Below are positions 20,878 through 29,399 of a DNA stretch of 29,399 bases, piece by piece. Each line of letters begins with the position of its first letter. Position 1 is the stretch's first letter. Location: the IMG/VR virus record IMGVR_UViG_3300020183_000345, positions 1 to 29,399 of that record, one strand, 5' to 3'. A program made the translations under genes and the position numbers. Under the pieces are notes generated by a model that saw only the letters and a program-made list of their open reading frames with translations, searched no databases and was not told where the DNA came from. This DNA comes from a virus.

Positions 20878-23800
20878 ATGGCAATAGATCCAAGAATATT
20901 AAAAATTGGCGGTGATCGTCAAGTAAATCTTAATGTAACTCCAGGTACTGTACAAGAGCAAGGCAGAACAATTGGAGGTAGATTCCAAGTAGGCGCACCT
21001 CAACAATCCGTAGGCCCCAGCGGAGAAGAATCCCTTTACCAAAGTTTGTCATATATTGCTGGCGGTGTTGTAGACTCGGCCCAAAACATATCACAGCTTG
21101 CTGCCCTTAATAATGATATCTTATGGAATAAATGGTATGATGATCAGTGGCAAGGTCCTAACAGTAAACGAAGATCTATCCTTGAAGATCCAGAAGTATC
21201 AAGAGAAGACAAAAGAAAAAAACTAGTTGAGTTACTAGATGCCGCACCAACTAATGGAAACAATAAAAATAGAAAAGCCCAGTTATATGGTGACTGGTTA
21301 GATCAAGACCCAGATGCTACTTCTTTATTTCAAGAAGACTATGCTAAGTTTCAAGAAGAAACTCTATCGTGGTCGCCTGAAGATAGACTAAGAGTATATC
21401 TAGAGAGGTTTAATTATGAGCTTCAAGCTGGTATGCCACAGGCTATGTCTTATTATTTAGGATATCAAAAAGACCTACAAAACCACACGCAAGAAGTAGC
21501 AGTAACTCAAGGTAAACTTAGTCTTGAAAGAACAGCAGGATTTATGCAAGACGTTTTTGAGGCTGTATTAGCAAATGATCAGGGAGATCCAGTATTATTA
21601 GATACCTTACGACAAGAAGCTACTAGTTCTGGAAGCTTACCACAACTTGAACAAGTCATAGGTCAGGTAGATCTTATTAGACAAAACGGTGGAAATTACG
21701 AAGCAATCGAAAGTGTATTAAGAGACACACTAGGAATTGAAGCAAACTCTGATAGGTATTCTCCTTACAATCATCTTATGCAGGATATAGTTGCTCAAGC
21801 TGCTTATAGATTAAGTAGAAGTATGGGTGCTGCACAGGCTGAATCAAATGCTAAATTTGAACAAGCAAATAAAGATACAAATAGAAGGGTTTTTTCTGTT
21901 ACCCCTTTACCAACACAAACGCAAGCAGCAGCAGCGGAAGTATTGGGATTGCTTTCTACAGTAAATATTAGAAATCCGGCTGATATGAACTCAGCTTTAT
22001 CATCTTTAATGGATGGTATTATAGAAACCATTAATAATAGTAACATGGGTCAAGTTGAAGCGGTTGATTATACAACAAACCTTTTAGTTAAAACATGGGA
22101 AACAGCAACACCAGCACAGCGACAAACAATGGTTGCTGCTGGTTTAGTTCGTGTTCCAAAAGATTCAACTGGTGCTTCTACATTACTTATTTTTCAAACA
22201 CCAAGTTATGCTGAAAGTAATAGAGAAAGTATAAAACAAATTGCATCTAGTACATTAAATAGTAATAGCAGATTTACTGGTGTAGTAGAAAGACAAATCA
22301 ATGCAGCAGTAGCTCCATATATAAATACAGCTATTACTGGTCTACAGTCAGCAGGACAACTACCTATCTTATTAAAGGCTACAGCAAGCAATCTTGGTTT
22401 AACTAGTGAAACATATGAACAAAATCTTATTCAAGTACTTGTAGCAACCAATACAAGTAATGTATTATTAGGTGAAGGTGGTAGAAATGTTTGGAATTGG
22501 GGTTTAGGGTTTCCGCCAAACGAGTATGACTTATATGTTGCAGCTAATCAGGGTGACCAATCACCAGAAGCAAAAGCTTTACTTAAAAAATATGGATCAC
22601 TAGCAACTAAAGATCAAGAGAATGAAGGTATAGCCAAGGCTTTTAGTGAAGATAACAAGGTTATACTTAGTTTAAACAGAGCTTTAAATAGAACCCTACA
22701 AGAAATTGGGTCCATAAAGATTGAAGAAGGTAAACAATCGGGTGTATTTACTCCAGCTCAGCTTAAAGAAGCAGCATCAGTATCTACCGATACACAAAGT
22801 GGTTGGAACTTTGCCAAAGATGCGTTTAAAAATAATCCTGCTGTTTATGATTTAGCTTTAAAAGCAAATGAAGCTTCTAATGGATTAACATATAATACAA
22901 TGGTTGGTAACGAAAGGTTTAGTTTTGCTGTTCCTGTTGCTTCTAACGGAATAACAATTAATAACTTACAACTTTTAGTAGCAGCTAGACTAGCACAACA
23001 AGAGATTAATGAACTAAAAAAAACAAATCCAACTATGGCTGCCGCTAGAGCAACAATTGCTGAAGAAGAATTAAAGAAACTAGCAACCAGAACAATAGTA
23101 TTAACTAGTATATCAAATCATCCTGCTATTGTTGGAGATAAACCAGATGAAATAGCAAGTCAACGAGCGGCAGCTACAAGGGTTGCAGAAGCTGCACTAG
23201 CAACAGAAAGCGCATTTACCTTATTATACAAGGATAGTGACCTTGATACTTCAACCTTCTATGGTCCAGTACTAGCAGATTCAAACTTAAGTACAATAAC
23301 CATTGTAGACGATAGTGGTACTCTAGATCAGGGTAATTATGCTAGGGCTGTCTTTATGGTTAGACACGGTATGTTTACCAAAGAAGATATAAAATCAAGA
23401 ATGGATAAAGCATTTGCGGATTTGTCTGCTAGAAGTGGTAATATAGAACAAATGGATAAAGGTAATCTAATGTTTTTATTTGCCATTGCTGATGGTATTG
23501 CAAGTAAAGCTGTAGCTAAATCTGTAAAAGATCCGACAACATTACAGTCATCTATTGATGCTCAGATTTTAATGATGTCTCAAGGTTCTGACATAAAGTC
23601 ATTTGTTCCTTCATTAAGATCTTTAGTTGCTTTAAAATTAGCAACCAATCAAGAATTTATAAAGGGAGATAATCGGTTTACTGTTAATAATCCAGATAAC
23701 ACAATTTCAGGACTTACAGATACTACTAGAAAAGCCTTAGGTAGTGAGTTTACTGAGCGTTCAAGTAGAATGGCTGAACTAGCTAAACGAAAACTTAAAG

Positions 23801-25356
23801 CAGCAGCAAATTTAGCAACAGATGCTGTACAAACCAAAAATCCACTTCAGATTTTTAGATCATCTAGTTGGTCTAATTCTGGTGAAGGGGATTTTAATAC
23901 TAATAATCAACTTGTATTTCCATTTTCAGTACTTACTACTAGAAATAACAGTGAAAATATAGCTAATAGAAACAATGGAGAAATGGTTCTAAAAGCATGG
24001 ACGGATTCTGGTTGGCAGATTGCTGGTAATACTTCTGAGCAGAAACAAAGAACAATTGTTAGAACACTAGCATCTACAGTTGGTATTCCATTTAAAGAAG
24101 ATGGAGATTCCTTCGTTGTAGGTATTACAATATTTGATGATAATAATAGACCAATAAACATAAAACTAACTGATGAAACATTTGGTTTTATTGTAGAAAC
24201 ATTAACAACTCCATTAAGAGCTAACCCAAACTTTAGTAATTTCCTACAAAACTATAGAGAAGCTTTTCCAGATGACACAGACTTAACTAGTGTAATGTCT
24301 TATTGGAATGATGAATCAAGTACTTTTTTCTTGGGTGGTCCAACTATTCTTCCTGACTTTTTCAGCTACGAAGTTGGACAATTTTGGACTGGAAATTGGA
24401 TGACTGATCCAGAACAAGCATTAACTGGCAATGTTCTTAGGATTCCAGCTAAACATAATAACTATGTTAATGCTCTTACAGCAGCACCAGGTTCTTATTT
24501 TCCTAATGGGGTAAGAAATCAAGAAACGGTTGAAGAAGATATCCCTGGGAGTTTATTTGATAGAGAAGAGTATCTTCCTGGTATTTCTGGTAGAGAATCT
24601 ACTTATGCTACTTTATGGTTGTTTGGTGAAAGATCAAGAATAAGTGAAGCAGAAATAAAAGAAGACTTAACTACACTAGCTAAAACTTATTATGGTGAAG
24701 ACTTAAATCCTTATACTATTGGAACTATTGAAGATGCTGCAACAAGATTAGCAGAAGATTCTAAACTTAATAGAAGAGCAAGAACAAATGCAGCTTTATT
24801 GTTTGAGTTAGAGGATATTGTATATACATCAGGAAGAGTACAAGGTAAGGGTGGTATATTACCACCAGATTTGTTAGATGTTGGTAATGGTATATTTAGT
24901 AATGCTCCTGGTAGAAAACCTAAAGTATTTTCAATTGATTTTGCAGGAGATGCTACAGTTAGACAAATGGTTTCAGATGATAGTGGATCTTACAGTATTC
25001 CTTTATCTTATGGTGTGCCATTTGATCCTAAGCTATATCCACTCCAAACTAATGAAACAATTACAGGCACTACTCAACTTACAAATCTAAATACTCAACT
25101 TGATTTTATTCGTGAATTTTTTGTAGGCGAAGAAGGAAGCACAAACTTTGGTCATCCTTGGTTACAATATATTGGCAGCCCACCACCAAGACCGCCTGGT
25201 ATTCATTATGGCTTTAATAGACAAGATCTTTCAAAAGATTATAATGACACCTTTAAATTCTCTGAACAATTTTGGAGACTAAAAAAAGAAGGCTTATATA
25301 GAACTAGAAGATTAAATGCTACGGGTCCATTGGTATTTAGAGAAGAAAGAGACTAA
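20878..25356 (+). CDS. Large internal virion protein (T7 gp15-like position)
   Basis: A 1492-residue, largely helical protein with an AAAGGA ribosome-binding site. Its N-terminal region (RTIGGRFQVGAPQQSVG..., SLSYIAGGVVDSAQNISQLA) resembles the start of T7 gp15-type core proteins, and the internal segments are Ala/Gln/Asn-rich helices with no membrane segment or enzyme motif. T7 gp15 has 747 residues, so this is about double; sequence support is limited and the call relies on position between gp14-like and a further large ejection-type protein. In T7, gp15 and gp16 form the periplasmic and inner-membrane parts of the DNA-ejection channel. The last 18 residues, RTRRLNATGPLVFREERD, hold the first copy of a 42-bp exact repeat also found in the next gene. 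No lytic transglycosylase motif is seen. Confidence 0.72.
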   Translation: MAIDPRILKIGGDRQVNLNVTPGTVQEQGRTIGGRFQVGAPQQSVGPSGEESLYQSLSYIAGGVVDSAQNISQLAALNNDILWNKWYDDQWQGPNSKRRSILEDPEVSREDKRKKLVELLDAAPTNGNNKNRKAQLYGDWLDQDPDATSLFQEDYAKFQEETLSWSPEDRLRVYLERFNYELQAGMPQAMSYYLGYQKDLQNHTQEVAVTQGKLSLERTAGFMQDVFEAVLANDQGDPVLLDTLRQEATSSGSLPQLEQVIGQVDLIRQNGGNYEAIESVLRDTLGIEANSDRYSPYNHLMQDIVAQAAYRLSRSMGAAQAESNAKFEQANKDTNRRVFSVTPLPTQTQAAAAEVLGLLSTVNIRNPADMNSALSSLMDGIIETINNSNMGQVEAVDYTTNLLVKTWETATPAQRQTMVAAGLVRVPKDSTGASTLLIFQTPSYAESNRESIKQIASSTLNSNSRFTGVVERQINAAVAPYINTAITGLQSAGQLPILLKATASNLGLTSETYEQNLIQVLVATNTSNVLLGEGGRNVWNWGLGFPPNEYDLYVAANQGDQSPEAKALLKKYGSLATKDQENEGIAKAFSEDNKVILSLNRALNRTLQEIGSIKIEEGKQSGVFTPAQLKEAASVSTDTQSGWNFAKDAFKNNPAVYDLALKANEASNGLTYNTMVGNERFSFAVPVASNGITINNLQLLVAARLAQQEINELKKTNPTMAAARATIAEEELKKLATRTIVLTSISNHPAIVGDKPDEIASQRAAATRVAEAALATESAFTLLYKDSDLDTSTFYGPVLADSNLSTITIVDDSGTLDQGNYARAVFMVRHGMFTKEDIKSRMDKAFADLSARSGNIEQMDKGNLMFLFAIADGIASKAVAKSVKDPTTLQSSIDAQILMMSQGSDIKSFVPSLRSLVALKLATNQEFIKGDNRFTVNNPDNTISGLTDTTRKALGSEFTERSSRMAELAKRKLKAAANLATDAVQTKNPLQIFRSSSWSNSGEGDFNTNNQLVFPFSVLTTRNNSENIANRNNGEMVLKAWTDSGWQIAGNTSEQKQRTIVRTLASTVGIPFKEDGDSFVVGITIFDDNNRPINIKLTDETFGFIVETLTTPLRANPNFSNFLQNYREAFPDDTDLTSVMSYWNDESSTFFLGGPTILPDFFSYEVGQFWTGNWMTDPEQALTGNVLRIPAKHNNYVNALTAAPGSYFPNGVRNQETVEEDIPGSLFDREEYLPGISGRESTYATLWLFGERSRISEAEIKEDLTTLAKTYYGEDLNPYTIGTIEDAATRLAEDSKLNRRARTNAALLFELEDIVYTSGRVQGKGGILPPDLLDVGNGIFSNAPGRKPKVFSIDFAGDATVRQMVSDDSGSYSIPLSYGVPFDPKLYPLQTNETITGTTQLTNLNTQLDFIREFFVGEEGSTNFGHPWLQYIGSPPPRPPGIHYGFNRQDLSKDYNDTFKFSEQFWRLKKEGLYRTRRLNATGPLVFREERD
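25299..25340 (+). repeat. 42-bp direct repeat, copy 1
   Basis: Starts TAGAACTAGAAGATTAAATG and ends TTGGTATTTAG. It is identical over 42 bases to 25661-25702, offset 362 bases. It lies in the last codons of the 1492-aa ejection protein and encodes RTRRLNATGPLVFR. Both copies are read in the same codon phase. Confidence 0.97.
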
Positions 25357-25358
25357 TA

Positions 25359-28157
25359 ATGAATTATGATCCTTATAATTTATTTGGCGATTCTTTTAAT
25401 CCTAAAGATTTTAGTTCATTAATACTACCCGAAGTTAGAACTGATGATGGAGAATTAGCTCGGGCAGATTTAAAGGCTTATAATGAATATAGCAATGATT
25501 TAAAAGAGTATATATACATTAGTGCTTTTCTTGAAGACGAGTACTTAAGTAGACCTAAAGAAGAAGATACCAATTTAAATAAACAAATTGCTAGTCAGTG
25601 GGCCTCTAGTTTAAGTAATACACCAAAAGATACCGATCAACTAGCTGATGAAAATACTGTTAGAACTAGAAGATTAAATGCTACGGGTCCATTGGTATTT
25701 AGGGACTATCAAACTGGCGAGTTAGTATTTGCAGATCCTGATAGAAATGAACAACAATGGATTATATCTCAGGGTAAAGATAATCTAGAAGGTATGTTTG
25801 GAATTGAAAAACCGGCAGCAGCGCAAGTATCTTTAAGATATATGGGTAAAGGGTTTAATACTAAAGATTTCTATACAGCACTTAAAGAAGCTAATATGGC
25901 TTTAGATGAAACAGAAAGAGAAAAAGCCATAGAAAAACTTAAAGGGTTTGCTGCTTGGGCTGAGTGGGGATGGGGTGCTAACTGGGTACAGTTTGTACCT
26001 TTCTTAAGTCCTGATAGCCGAGATAATATTGCAAGGGAATCAATTAAGGCTTTATCAATAGGTGGTTATGGTGGCCTTATAACATTTGGAGAAAACTATT
26101 ATTCTTCAGACCCATTTGATATAGTTTCTAACTTACCGGCAAATCCAAATTGGAATTATAATAAAGCATGGAAAGCATTTGAACAAACAAATCCAGGAGC
26201 TGCTGCCTGGTTTGTTCAAAATGGATTAGATGTCCAAGCTTTGTCTAATACAAAAAACGAATTAGATTTTTTCTATGAGTTAAATAACTTTGTAGATACT
26301 AATGCATTTGTTAGAATAATGGGATCTGATGTAGAACAAATGTCTGATCTAGGTTATTTAATTAAGACTACAGTAGGCCCCCTTATTAGAGATTCATTTG
26401 GATCTATTGATGCTCCTGTAGATATTGCAGCAACTATTGGGGTATCTGTAGTTACTGCTGGTGTAGGTGGCGCAGCTTTGCTTGGTGCCCGTGGAGCAAT
26501 CTTAGCTGGCAAGTATGGATCAACTGCAATGAAAACTGTACAAGCTGTTCAGCGATTTAGAAAGTCAGCTGAAGTCGTTACCTCTTGGTTGCCACATAAT
26601 ATTGCTGGTAGGTTTGCAAAAGAATCTAGCACCCTTACCGGCAAAGCAGCAACCTATGCTGGTGTAAGTGTAGGTAATGGCGTTATTACTGGTGCATGGT
26701 ATAACATAAACAACCAGTTAAATAATATGGATAACGATACAGCATATGAGTGGAGTACAAAGAATCTTGCTCACGATATTGGAATGGAAATTGTTGGTGA
26801 GTTTGGGTTAGGTGGTTTATCATCTGGTGTTCAGTTTGTAACATTTAAGGGTGTTAGTGCTTTAGATAAAGTTAGTGGAAACTATTTAGGTAAGGTAGTT
26901 AAATCACAGTTTGAAAAACTACCAACAAACCTACAAGAATTCCTAAAAGCATCAGCACAACTAGCAAGACCCTTTAACTCTAATGAAGATTTAAGTAACT
27001 ATGAACTTAGAATCTATACTGATGCTGTTGTTACCGCTTATGCTATGCGTACTGCTGGTATCCTGGATGCTAATAATCAATCCCCAAACTTTAGAACAGC
27101 AGCAGCTTGGGGCATGGCTTCTCAAACTTTAAGTGCAGAACGAACCGCACAAATAGTAGAGAAAGCTAAGGATAGTTTAATTAGAAAGAAAAAAGAACTA
27201 GCAGATTCAGAATCACCAGAAGTTTTAACTGACGATGATATGGATTTATATGTTGCCGAAACCTTATTCTCTGCTATGGTTTCTGATACATCTATTTCAG
27301 AAAGTGGTAAAAGCCAAATCGTTGGTCTTTGGCTTGCAATGGAACGAGAGATGTTTAACAAGAGCCAGAGAAATGAAGAACAAATATCTGGTAAACAAAA
27401 AGAAATTAGTGACCTTGAAAACGAAAAGATGAATCTTGTTGAGTACTTAGAAAAGAATAAAACAAAACTTTCTGAAGAACAAAAACAAGAAACCCAAGGT
27501 AAAATAGATTCTCTATCAGTAGATATAAGTACTAAGAATACTGAACTAGAGCAGCTTAATAAAAATGCTGATCTTAGTACCCTAAGTGCTGAAGAGTTGG
27601 CTGGTAAATTAAAGGAGTGGAGAGATGGTAAGAGAGAAAGAGCAAAAGCTTTACGCGCTTTAATTATTCCATCCGATTCTACTTCTGCTATTGATGCAGT
27701 AGCAACTAGGGAAGAACTAAGGGCAGTAGCAACTGAGCTTGGTGAAGCAGCTATTCCTGTAATAGAAGCACTAAGAGAAACCTCAACACCAGAGTCTGGG
27801 TTGCCTTCTGATATAGGACCTACCCTCGCTACTGAATTAGATAAAGCGGCAGCAGAAGTCGTTAGAACGGCAGCTCCAGCAGAACCAGCAGTAACCCCGG
27901 AAGTTATTGCAGAACCTCCCACAACGCCTTCTGAGGTTGCTCCTGAGGGTGCTGAGCCTGTAGCTGAGGCTGTTACTGAAGGTGCTGAGCCTGTAGCTGA
28001 GGCTGTTCCAGAAGTAACTGAACCTACCCCAGAACCTTCAACCGGGGTTATAGATGTCAGGGCAGCAATGTCAGAACTTGCCGAGAACTTAGAAACTGTA
28101 GATAGGATATACCTATTTAACAAGATACTACAAAAATACAAAGATGCCTGTAAATAA
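25359..28157 (+). CDS. Large internal virion protein with Gly/Ala-rich hydrophobic region (gp16-like position)
   Basis: A 932-residue protein starting 2 bases after the previous stop, with only a weak GAAAGAG ribosome-binding sequence, so translational coupling is likely. Residues 102-115 hold the second copy of the RTRRLNATGPLVFR repeat. Residues ~350-395 (VDIAATIGVSVVTAGVGGAA LLGARGAILAG) are a Gly/Ala-rich hydrophobic stretch that could enter a membrane. Residues ~665-740 look like a charged coiled coil (EEQISGKQKEISDLENEKMN...). Residues ~843-897 are a Pro/Ala/Glu linker with an 11-residue tandem repeat, and the end (VIDVRAAMSELAENLETVDR...) is a helix. T7 gp16 has 1318 residues and an N-terminal lytic transglycosylase; none is visible here. 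A role in DNA ejection is inferred from position and the hydrophobic segment. Confidence 0.72.
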   Translation: MNYDPYNLFGDSFNPKDFSSLILPEVRTDDGELARADLKAYNEYSNDLKEYIYISAFLEDEYLSRPKEEDTNLNKQIASQWASSLSNTPKDTDQLADENTVRTRRLNATGPLVFRDYQTGELVFADPDRNEQQWIISQGKDNLEGMFGIEKPAAAQVSLRYMGKGFNTKDFYTALKEANMALDETEREKAIEKLKGFAAWAEWGWGANWVQFVPFLSPDSRDNIARESIKALSIGGYGGLITFGENYYSSDPFDIVSNLPANPNWNYNKAWKAFEQTNPGAAAWFVQNGLDVQALSNTKNELDFFYELNNFVDTNAFVRIMGSDVEQMSDLGYLIKTTVGPLIRDSFGSIDAPVDIAATIGVSVVTAGVGGAALLGARGAILAGKYGSTAMKTVQAVQRFRKSAEVVTSWLPHNIAGRFAKESSTLTGKAATYAGVSVGNGVITGAWYNINNQLNNMDNDTAYEWSTKNLAHDIGMEIVGEFGLGGLSSGVQFVTFKGVSALDKVSGNYLGKVVKSQFEKLPTNLQEFLKASAQLARPFNSNEDLSNYELRIYTDAVVTAYAMRTAGILDANNQSPNFRTAAAWGMASQTLSAERTAQIVEKAKDSLIRKKKELADSESPEVLTDDDMDLYVAETLFSAMVSDTSISESGKSQIVGLWLAMEREMFNKSQRNEEQISGKQKEISDLENEKMNLVEYLEKNKTKLSEEQKQETQGKIDSLSVDISTKNTELEQLNKNADLSTLSAEELAGKLKEWRDGKRERAKALRALIIPSDSTSAIDAVATREELRAVATELGEAAIPVIEALRETSTPESGLPSDIGPTLATELDKAAAEVVRTAAPAEPAVTPEVIAEPPTTPSEVAPEGAEPVAEAVTEGAEPVAEAVPEVTEPTPEPSTGVIDVRAAMSELAENLETVDRIYLFNKILQKYKDACK
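25661..25702 (+). repeat. 42-bp direct repeat, copy 2
   Basis: Identical to 25299-25340 and read in the same phase (RTRRLNATGPLVFR), here at residues 102-115 of the 932-aa protein, followed by DYQTGELVFADPD. Flanking sequences differ on both sides, so the identity stops sharply. Confidence 0.97.
27948..28007 (+). repeat. Tandem 33-bp repeat in Pro/Ala/Glu linker
   Basis: The 27-base unit GGTGCTGAGCCTGTAGCTGA plus GGCTGTT occurs at 27948-27974 and again at 27981-28007, a period of 33 bases. It encodes GAEPVAEAV twice, with TE between, inside a disordered-looking linker. Such in-frame repeats arise by slippage or unequal recombination and can change linker length between relatives. Confidence 0.93.
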
Positions 28158-28168
28158 GGAGATATATA

Positions 28169-29399
28169 ATGGGTAAATGTAGCGAAGAAGTCTTAAATAA
28201 TATTAGAGAAGAATTAAAATCCCTAGGAGTAACTGATCCTGAAGTTGTTAATAAGATTGTATTAACCTTTGAGAATACAGTAGAAACAGATGAAAAAGCA
28301 GAAACCATCGCTACATTACTAAACAATAGTTTATTTACAGATAAAGATAGAGCAAGATTAGATACATTAATTAGTAAGTTTAGAAAAGCTAGGGGTGATA
28401 TTAGTAAAGTAACATCTGAAGAACTATCAGAGTTTTCCTACTTATGGTCTAAATGGCAAAGTTCACTGGATGGTACTATCCTTGTTAATGAGGGATTACA
28501 AACTAGAGAAACAGAAACACTTGTTAGTAGATTAAATAAACTTAAACTACGACTAGAAAGAGAAGGCAAAGCTAAAGAAGCTAAGGTTGTTAGTGGGCTT
28601 ATAAGTAGACTTGATAGAGCCAGAACACAAAATTTACAGGCTGGTAATTTTCTACGGAATGCTGACTTTGAGGGTAGATTAGAAAAATCAAGGCAGCTCT
28701 TAAGTGCTATTGATTCATCCTATCAATATGAAGCACAAAATAATCCTGAACTACTTAAGCTAAACGAAGAGCGGTTTAAGTTGGTTGGAGAACTTCGACT
28801 AGAAAAAGATCCAGAAAAACAAAAAGAAATACAAGAAAAAATCAACAAGAATATTGCAGAAGTAAGAAAGAAAACAAACGAACTACTACTTAGCAAAGCT
28901 TTTATTAAACAAAAGAAAGCTGACTCGGCTGGACAAGAACTACTCTATGATACAATCAAAGAACTTAGTTCTGCAATAGATTCAAATGCTTCTGTATATC
29001 GATTAGCTTTAAATGACGCGCTGTCTAGAATAGATACACTAGCAAACGATAAACAACTATTTGAATTAGCAAAGCAAAGCATAAACATGGTTAATACTGT
29101 TAGGGCTTTGATGGATGCTATTAGAAAAGAAAAGGGTGGCAAGGTTACTGTTGGAGAACTAAAAGAAGTACTCAGTGATCTTGGAGTCCCTGTTGATACG
29201 CTTGTCCTTGAAGTATTTAAAAACGAAAGACTAACAAGAAAAGAAAAGAAAAAACTGCTTAATGGTGAAACTGAACTATCAGATAATCAAATAGCAAACA
29301 TCTTTACTAAGCTATCTAACATTGCTATTGATCAAGCATTTGCTAATGGTATTGCGCTGGGTTACGATTTTACCCCTGCCGAACAAGTATTAGCTGCAC
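28169..29399 (+). CDS. Helical internal-virion-type protein, 3'-truncated by window edge
   Basis: An ATG at 28169, after a strong AAGGAGATATATA ribosome-binding region and an 11-base gap, opens a frame that runs without a stop to the window end (410 codons seen). The product starts MGKCSEEVLNNIREELKSLG and is almost wholly helical and charged, rich in Lys, Glu, Leu and Asn, with coiled-coil-like parts such as residues ~115-150 (LVSRLNKLKLRLEREGKAKE) and ~195-245 (PELLKLNEERFKLVGELRLE). No membrane segment, signal or enzyme motif is visible in this part. Directly following the ejection-type genes, it may be a further core protein, or the continuation of a gp16-type function split over two genes. 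Its C-terminus, possibly with an enzymatic domain, is outside the window. Confidence 0.75.
   Translation, partial: MGKCSEEVLNNIREELKSLGVTDPEVVNKIVLTFENTVETDEKAETIATLLNNSLFTDKDRARLDTLISKFRKARGDISKVTSEELSEFSYLWSKWQSSLDGTILVNEGLQTRETETLVSRLNKLKLRLEREGKAKEAKVVSGLISRLDRARTQNLQAGNFLRNADFEGRLEKSRQLLSAIDSSYQYEAQNNPELLKLNEERFKLVGELRLEKDPEKQKEIQEKINKNIAEVRKKTNELLLSKAFIKQKKADSAGQELLYDTIKELSSAIDSNASVYRLALNDALSRIDTLANDKQLFELAKQSINMVNTVRALMDAIRKEKGGKVTVGELKEVLSDLGVPVDTLVLEVFKNERLTRKEKKKLLNGETELSDNQIANIFTKLSNIAIDQAFANGIALGYDFTPAEQVLAA

Follow-up and report, generated by a model that had tools for sequence, protein, structure and literature searches.

A 42-bp direct repeat in two putative ejection-protein genes of a T7-like podophage, probably the trace of a recent short duplication

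The closest described counterparts of the two genes considered here are those for gp15 and gp16 of phage T7. The latter protein stabilises the C-termini of gp15, and its residues 157-228 form a 'molecular tape', an extended region which cements the gp15 binding interfaces (PMC8954989). For the repeat that joins the two genes, the nearest comparison is with short non-tandem duplications arising by template switch or illegitimate recombination; the literature consulted gave background on ejection proteins and no described case of such a repeat.

The DNA analysed (the window) covers 29.4 kb of a probable 65-70 kb genome of an uncultured virus. It carries a terminase large subunit (TerL) and a nozzle protein of the T7 type (PF22530, PF25675), while a T7-type single-subunit RNA polymerase (PF00940) was identified in all six relatives of 65-69 kb. 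Judged by these predicted genes, with terminase and nozzle from the window and the polymerase from its relatives, the phage is a T7-like podophage. Two large genes on the plus strand, gene 1 (20878..25356, 1492 aa) and gene 2 (25359..28157, 932 aa), are designated putative internal virion or ejection proteins by gene order only. Like those for gp15 and gp16 they follow a short gene, and their position, in a phage whose terminase and nozzle are of the T7 type, is the usual one of ejection-protein genes in T7-like phages. However, unlike the T7 pair they are larger, sit downstream of the terminase gene and show no sequence or family match, the PHROG and Pfam comparisons giving none for either gene, gp15 and gp16 included. 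AlphaFold models of gene 2 and of the C-terminus of gene 1 had a pLDDT of about 30 and were too poor for a fold search.

The 42-bp exact direct repeat, TAGAACTAGAAGATTAAATGCTACGGGTCCATTGGTATTTAG, is found at positions 25299-25340 (copy 1) and 25661-25702 (copy 2), both on the plus strand and at an offset of 362 bp, and can be extended to 45 bp with one mismatch. Copy 1 lies at the 3′ end of gene 1 and encodes residues 1475-1488 (RTRRLNATGPLVFR, followed by EERD and the stop codon), while copy 2 encodes residues 102-115 of gene 2 in the same codon phase; coordinates, residues and phase are as given in the original prediction, which had been made from the letters of this DNA. That prediction also had every base of 14 shared codons identical, which is true of 13 codons together with 3 flanking bases, the 14th codon being AGA in copy 1 and the synonymous AGG in copy 2. 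At a threshold of 16 bp this is the sole dispersed exact repeat in the window, the only other family being a tandem repeat at 27931-28029, and the longest direct repeats in 40 first-order Markov shuffles of the window measured 13-17 bp. A search for further copies, as had been proposed, covered this fragment of the genome, and no third copy with three or fewer mismatches to either half was detected in its 29 kb.

Both copies possess the codons ACG and TTG, which had been called uncommon in this DNA and are so, ACG accounting for 2% of Thr codons in the window (16 occurrences) and TTG for 9% of Leu codons (60 occurrences). Were the same peptide encoded by codons chosen independently, an identical choice would be expected with p ~1e-5 given the codon usage of this genome, and therefore protein constraint alone is not the cause of the identity of the copies, a point on which the earlier reasoning was sound. 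It was likewise right that the frames are compatible, in that deletion of the 362 bp between the copies would join both into one. The shared phase, to which weight had been given, is real; nevertheless it is a weak argument and no evidence of peptide function, as the other two frames of the repeated segment contain stops and a copy within the open tail of gene 1 must therefore have this phase.

Three contigs possessing both genes (L003, L004, and L005) were used to establish the direction of the copying. Gene 2 of the window shares 78% identity with that of L003, about 55% with those of L004 and L005 and about 30-31% with that of the more distant L027. At the site of copy 2 the first three have the peptides RSRRLNATGPLVYR, RSRELNNIGPLVFR, and RSRELNNIGPMVFR respectively, conforming to R[ST]R(R/E)LN..GP[LM]V[FY]R, and a weaker but recognisable block, QNRLLRGQGPILFRDYQDG, is present in L027. 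Residues 102-115 of gene 2 thus constitute, on this alignment, an older and moderately conserved block. Profile scans (A1, A2) added one further relative, which is truncated, and a scan of genome contigs with the gene 2 alignment gave no matches.

Gene 1 is less similar, with 58% identity to L003 and about 41% to L004 and L005, and it is at its C-terminus that the window differs most plainly from these contigs. Their gene 1 ends in GHPWLSLKESK or GHPWIHFKGDSNK, stopping 6-10 residues past the conserved GHPW and about 55 residues before the end of the window's protein. In the window, GHPW is followed by LQYIGSPPPRPPGIHYGFNRQDLSKDYNDTFKFSEQFWRLKKEGLY, then by the copied RTRRLNATGPLVFR and then by EERD. 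This window-specific tail (25162..25356, plus strand, LQYIGSPPP...REERD and stop) adds 64 in-frame codons to gene 1 at a G+C content of 0.34 vs 0.36, holds copy 1 and leaves the stop-start junction between gene 1 and gene 2 intact. Both the tail and copy 1 are absent from gene 1 of L003, L004, and L005. As the peptide is present in gene 2 of these relatives and their gene 1 has no tail, the comparison shows copy 2 to be the original and copy 1 to be a recent addition within a tail that, among these sequences, only the window appears to have. The genome thus contains the segment twice in near-identical form, while relatives lack one of the two at the orthologous place. The tail itself could be an acquisition of the window's lineage or could have disappeared from the others; with three relatives on two branches lacking it, acquisition is the simpler course.

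No second genome with copy 1 was found among viral contigs by scans with the exact 43 bases, a degenerate motif or the tail peptide, and tblastn of gene 1, gene 2 and the tail against annotated phages returned no matches. Sequence scans of viral contigs, annotated phages and the window itself also gave no homologue that might be the source of the remaining 46 tail residues, and the tail and copy 1 may derive from two separate events.

With regard to the age of the copy, the orthologous 45-bp segment differs between the window and L003 at 7 of its 45 bases, while the two copies within the window differ at none of 42, or at 1 of 45 when extended, and so are more alike than the orthologues. Across gene 2 the window and L003 use the same codon for 62% of 554 identical residues and are identical at 52% of 4-fold sites. 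Had the copies existed since the split from L003, 13 identical codons out of 13 would be expected with p ~0.002 (by our own arithmetic, 0.62 to the 13th power). It follows from this value, and from 7 vs 1 differences per 45 bp, that the copying is recent on the scale of gene 2 divergence, although in genes 1 and 2 even the nearest relatives are far removed and the date is to be taken as an upper bound only. A recent copying event was among the proposals of the original prediction, and it is the one that the relatives, with their gene 2 copy only, bear out.

The two genes also appear to lie in a mosaic block. Identity at 4-fold sites between the window and L010, which is the same contig as L003, is 99% for the gp11-like gene, 93% for a 181-aa gene and 91% for TerL; it falls to 50-62% for genes 1 and 2. 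Given this sharp drop, an exchange between lineages is the most likely history of the block formed by genes 1 and 2. The C-termini of gene 1 look dissimilar among one another across the whole group, distant relatives included, and with such ends in an exchanged block a tail of arbitrary origin would plausibly be tolerated. A new tail of mixed origin fits this mosaic setting.

Taken together, the repeat probably (at a probability of about 0.77) records a single, recent duplication of the non-tandem kind, from gene 2 into the tail of gene 1. The codons for residues 102-115, a stretch of some 42-45 bp in the 5′ part of gene 2, would have served as donor, and their copy would have been placed 362 bp upstream at the 3′ end of gene 1, inside the C-terminal tail that its relatives lack. 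In the simplest account this was a local error of copying, in which a nascent strand or a broken end may have left its own template for that of gene 2, 362 bp away, over about 42-45 bases; alternatively, a fragment may have been joined by illegitimate recombination, and either could have happened as the tail arose or afterwards. A replication template switch or illegitimate recombination is the likely mechanism, and the two copies would have no function as a pair. The locus resembles described short non-tandem duplications in that a short exact copy lies nearby in the same orientation, a few hundred bases off, and in that the repeat occurs singly with no mobile-element signature seen. It differs from them in that breakpoints and microhomology between donor and acceptor are not readable here without the ancestor that preceded the event.

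Most likely, then, an ordinary rearrangement took place once and the repeat is no conserved signal, and the comparison of junctions agrees. The tail of gene 1 was compared with the first 1500 bases of gene 2 at 32 junctions, that of the window and 31 related ones. The longest match was 42 bp in the window and 8-12 bp in the others with the exception of L041, where a longer match is an artefact of overlapping frames, the same DNA being counted twice. The two relatives of 68-69 kb have the motif once each. A conserved recombination hot spot, as had been suggested, is not borne out by relatives with a single motif and no other gene 1 tail repeating gene 2; nor is a peptide regularly used twice, as the relatives hold it once and never in gene 1. 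The idea of a scar left by gene splitting, for which fused versions were to be sought, fares no better, the two genes being separate and none fused in all 31 related junctions.

It is considered unlikely that the copied peptide has a selected role in the virion, with the tail of gene 1 presenting the gene 2 segment as a contact or processing site. Among the relatives, L027 (about 31%) included, gene 2 retains the block with moderate conservation, and the tape of T7 gp16 on gp15 makes contact between the N-terminal block of gene 2 and the C-terminus of gene 1 conceivable (PMC8954989). However, the peptide occurs in gene 1 of no relative, no match to gp15, gp16 or any family was obtained for the two proteins, both regions were modelled at low confidence, and recency alone explains the identity at the DNA level. 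That a conserved gene 2 peptide was grafted onto the gene 1 tail to give the ejection complex a shared docking or processing segment appears less likely again. Perfect identity, rare codons included, is also what would be expected of a DNA or RNA element such as a recombination site, a promoter or a structured RNA kept identical by selection, and the original prediction had allowed for a function at this level. Such an element is highly improbable, as there are just two copies in 29 kb, folding of the repeat is no better than that of shuffles (z -0.03 to 1.55) and promoter-like matches are equally numerous in shuffled sequence; moreover, silent sites and some coding sites of the orthologous segment have diverged in L003, L004, and L005, each record holding a single copy.

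It is very unlikely that the repeat is a chimera of assembly or amplification in a metagenomic contig. The sequence is a fragment of an uncultured virus and its tail is present in no second independent contig, but the tail remains in frame with gene 1 for 64 codons at a similar G+C content and its junction with gene 2 is undisturbed. In addition, reads and assembly words usually exceed 42 bp in length, which also speaks against a chimera. Least probable of all is an origin of the whole tail by tandem duplication of gene 2 residues ~56-115 and subsequent decay, with the identity of only the last 42 bp preserved or restored by conversion. Upstream of the motif, 37 residues in the register of the repeat are identical at 7 positions, a score that ranks first among 896 positions of gene 2 and sixth among 8298 in the proteins of the window. 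Nevertheless, DNA identity in this register is at background (33% vs 29%, p 0.17), a gapped alignment is no better than shuffles, and the orthologues in L003, L004, L027, L013, and L014 have no notable similarity to the tail; on these three counts the resemblance of these residues to gene 2 was put down to chance.

The favoured duplication from gene 2 provides a clean, polarised case in which a very short intragenomic copy supplies part of the new C-terminus of a virion gene. Set in a mosaic block of ejection genes, it shows one way in which gene ends may diverge, and taken alone it changes no view of the ejection machinery.

A number of other features of this phage group should be mentioned. 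The tandem repeats at 27931-28029 belong to a 33-bp family and encode a linker rich in Ala, Pro, Glu, and Val near the C-terminus of gene 2; tandem repeats are also present near the gene 2 C-terminus in L013, L014, L020, L026, L031, and L036. The gene 3′ of gene 2, whose orthologue in the window starts at 28169, encodes a protein of at least 3328 aa without a Pfam match in L004 (12760-22743), its size and place recalling the giant virion proteins of N4-like phages. The L004 phage with this gene also has the T7-type RNA polymerase. Besides the polymerase of 812-833 aa, the records of L017 and L044 (in a 637-aa frame) and of L081 (in a 717-aa frame) have another frame that matches the T7-type RNA polymerase family, though more weakly.
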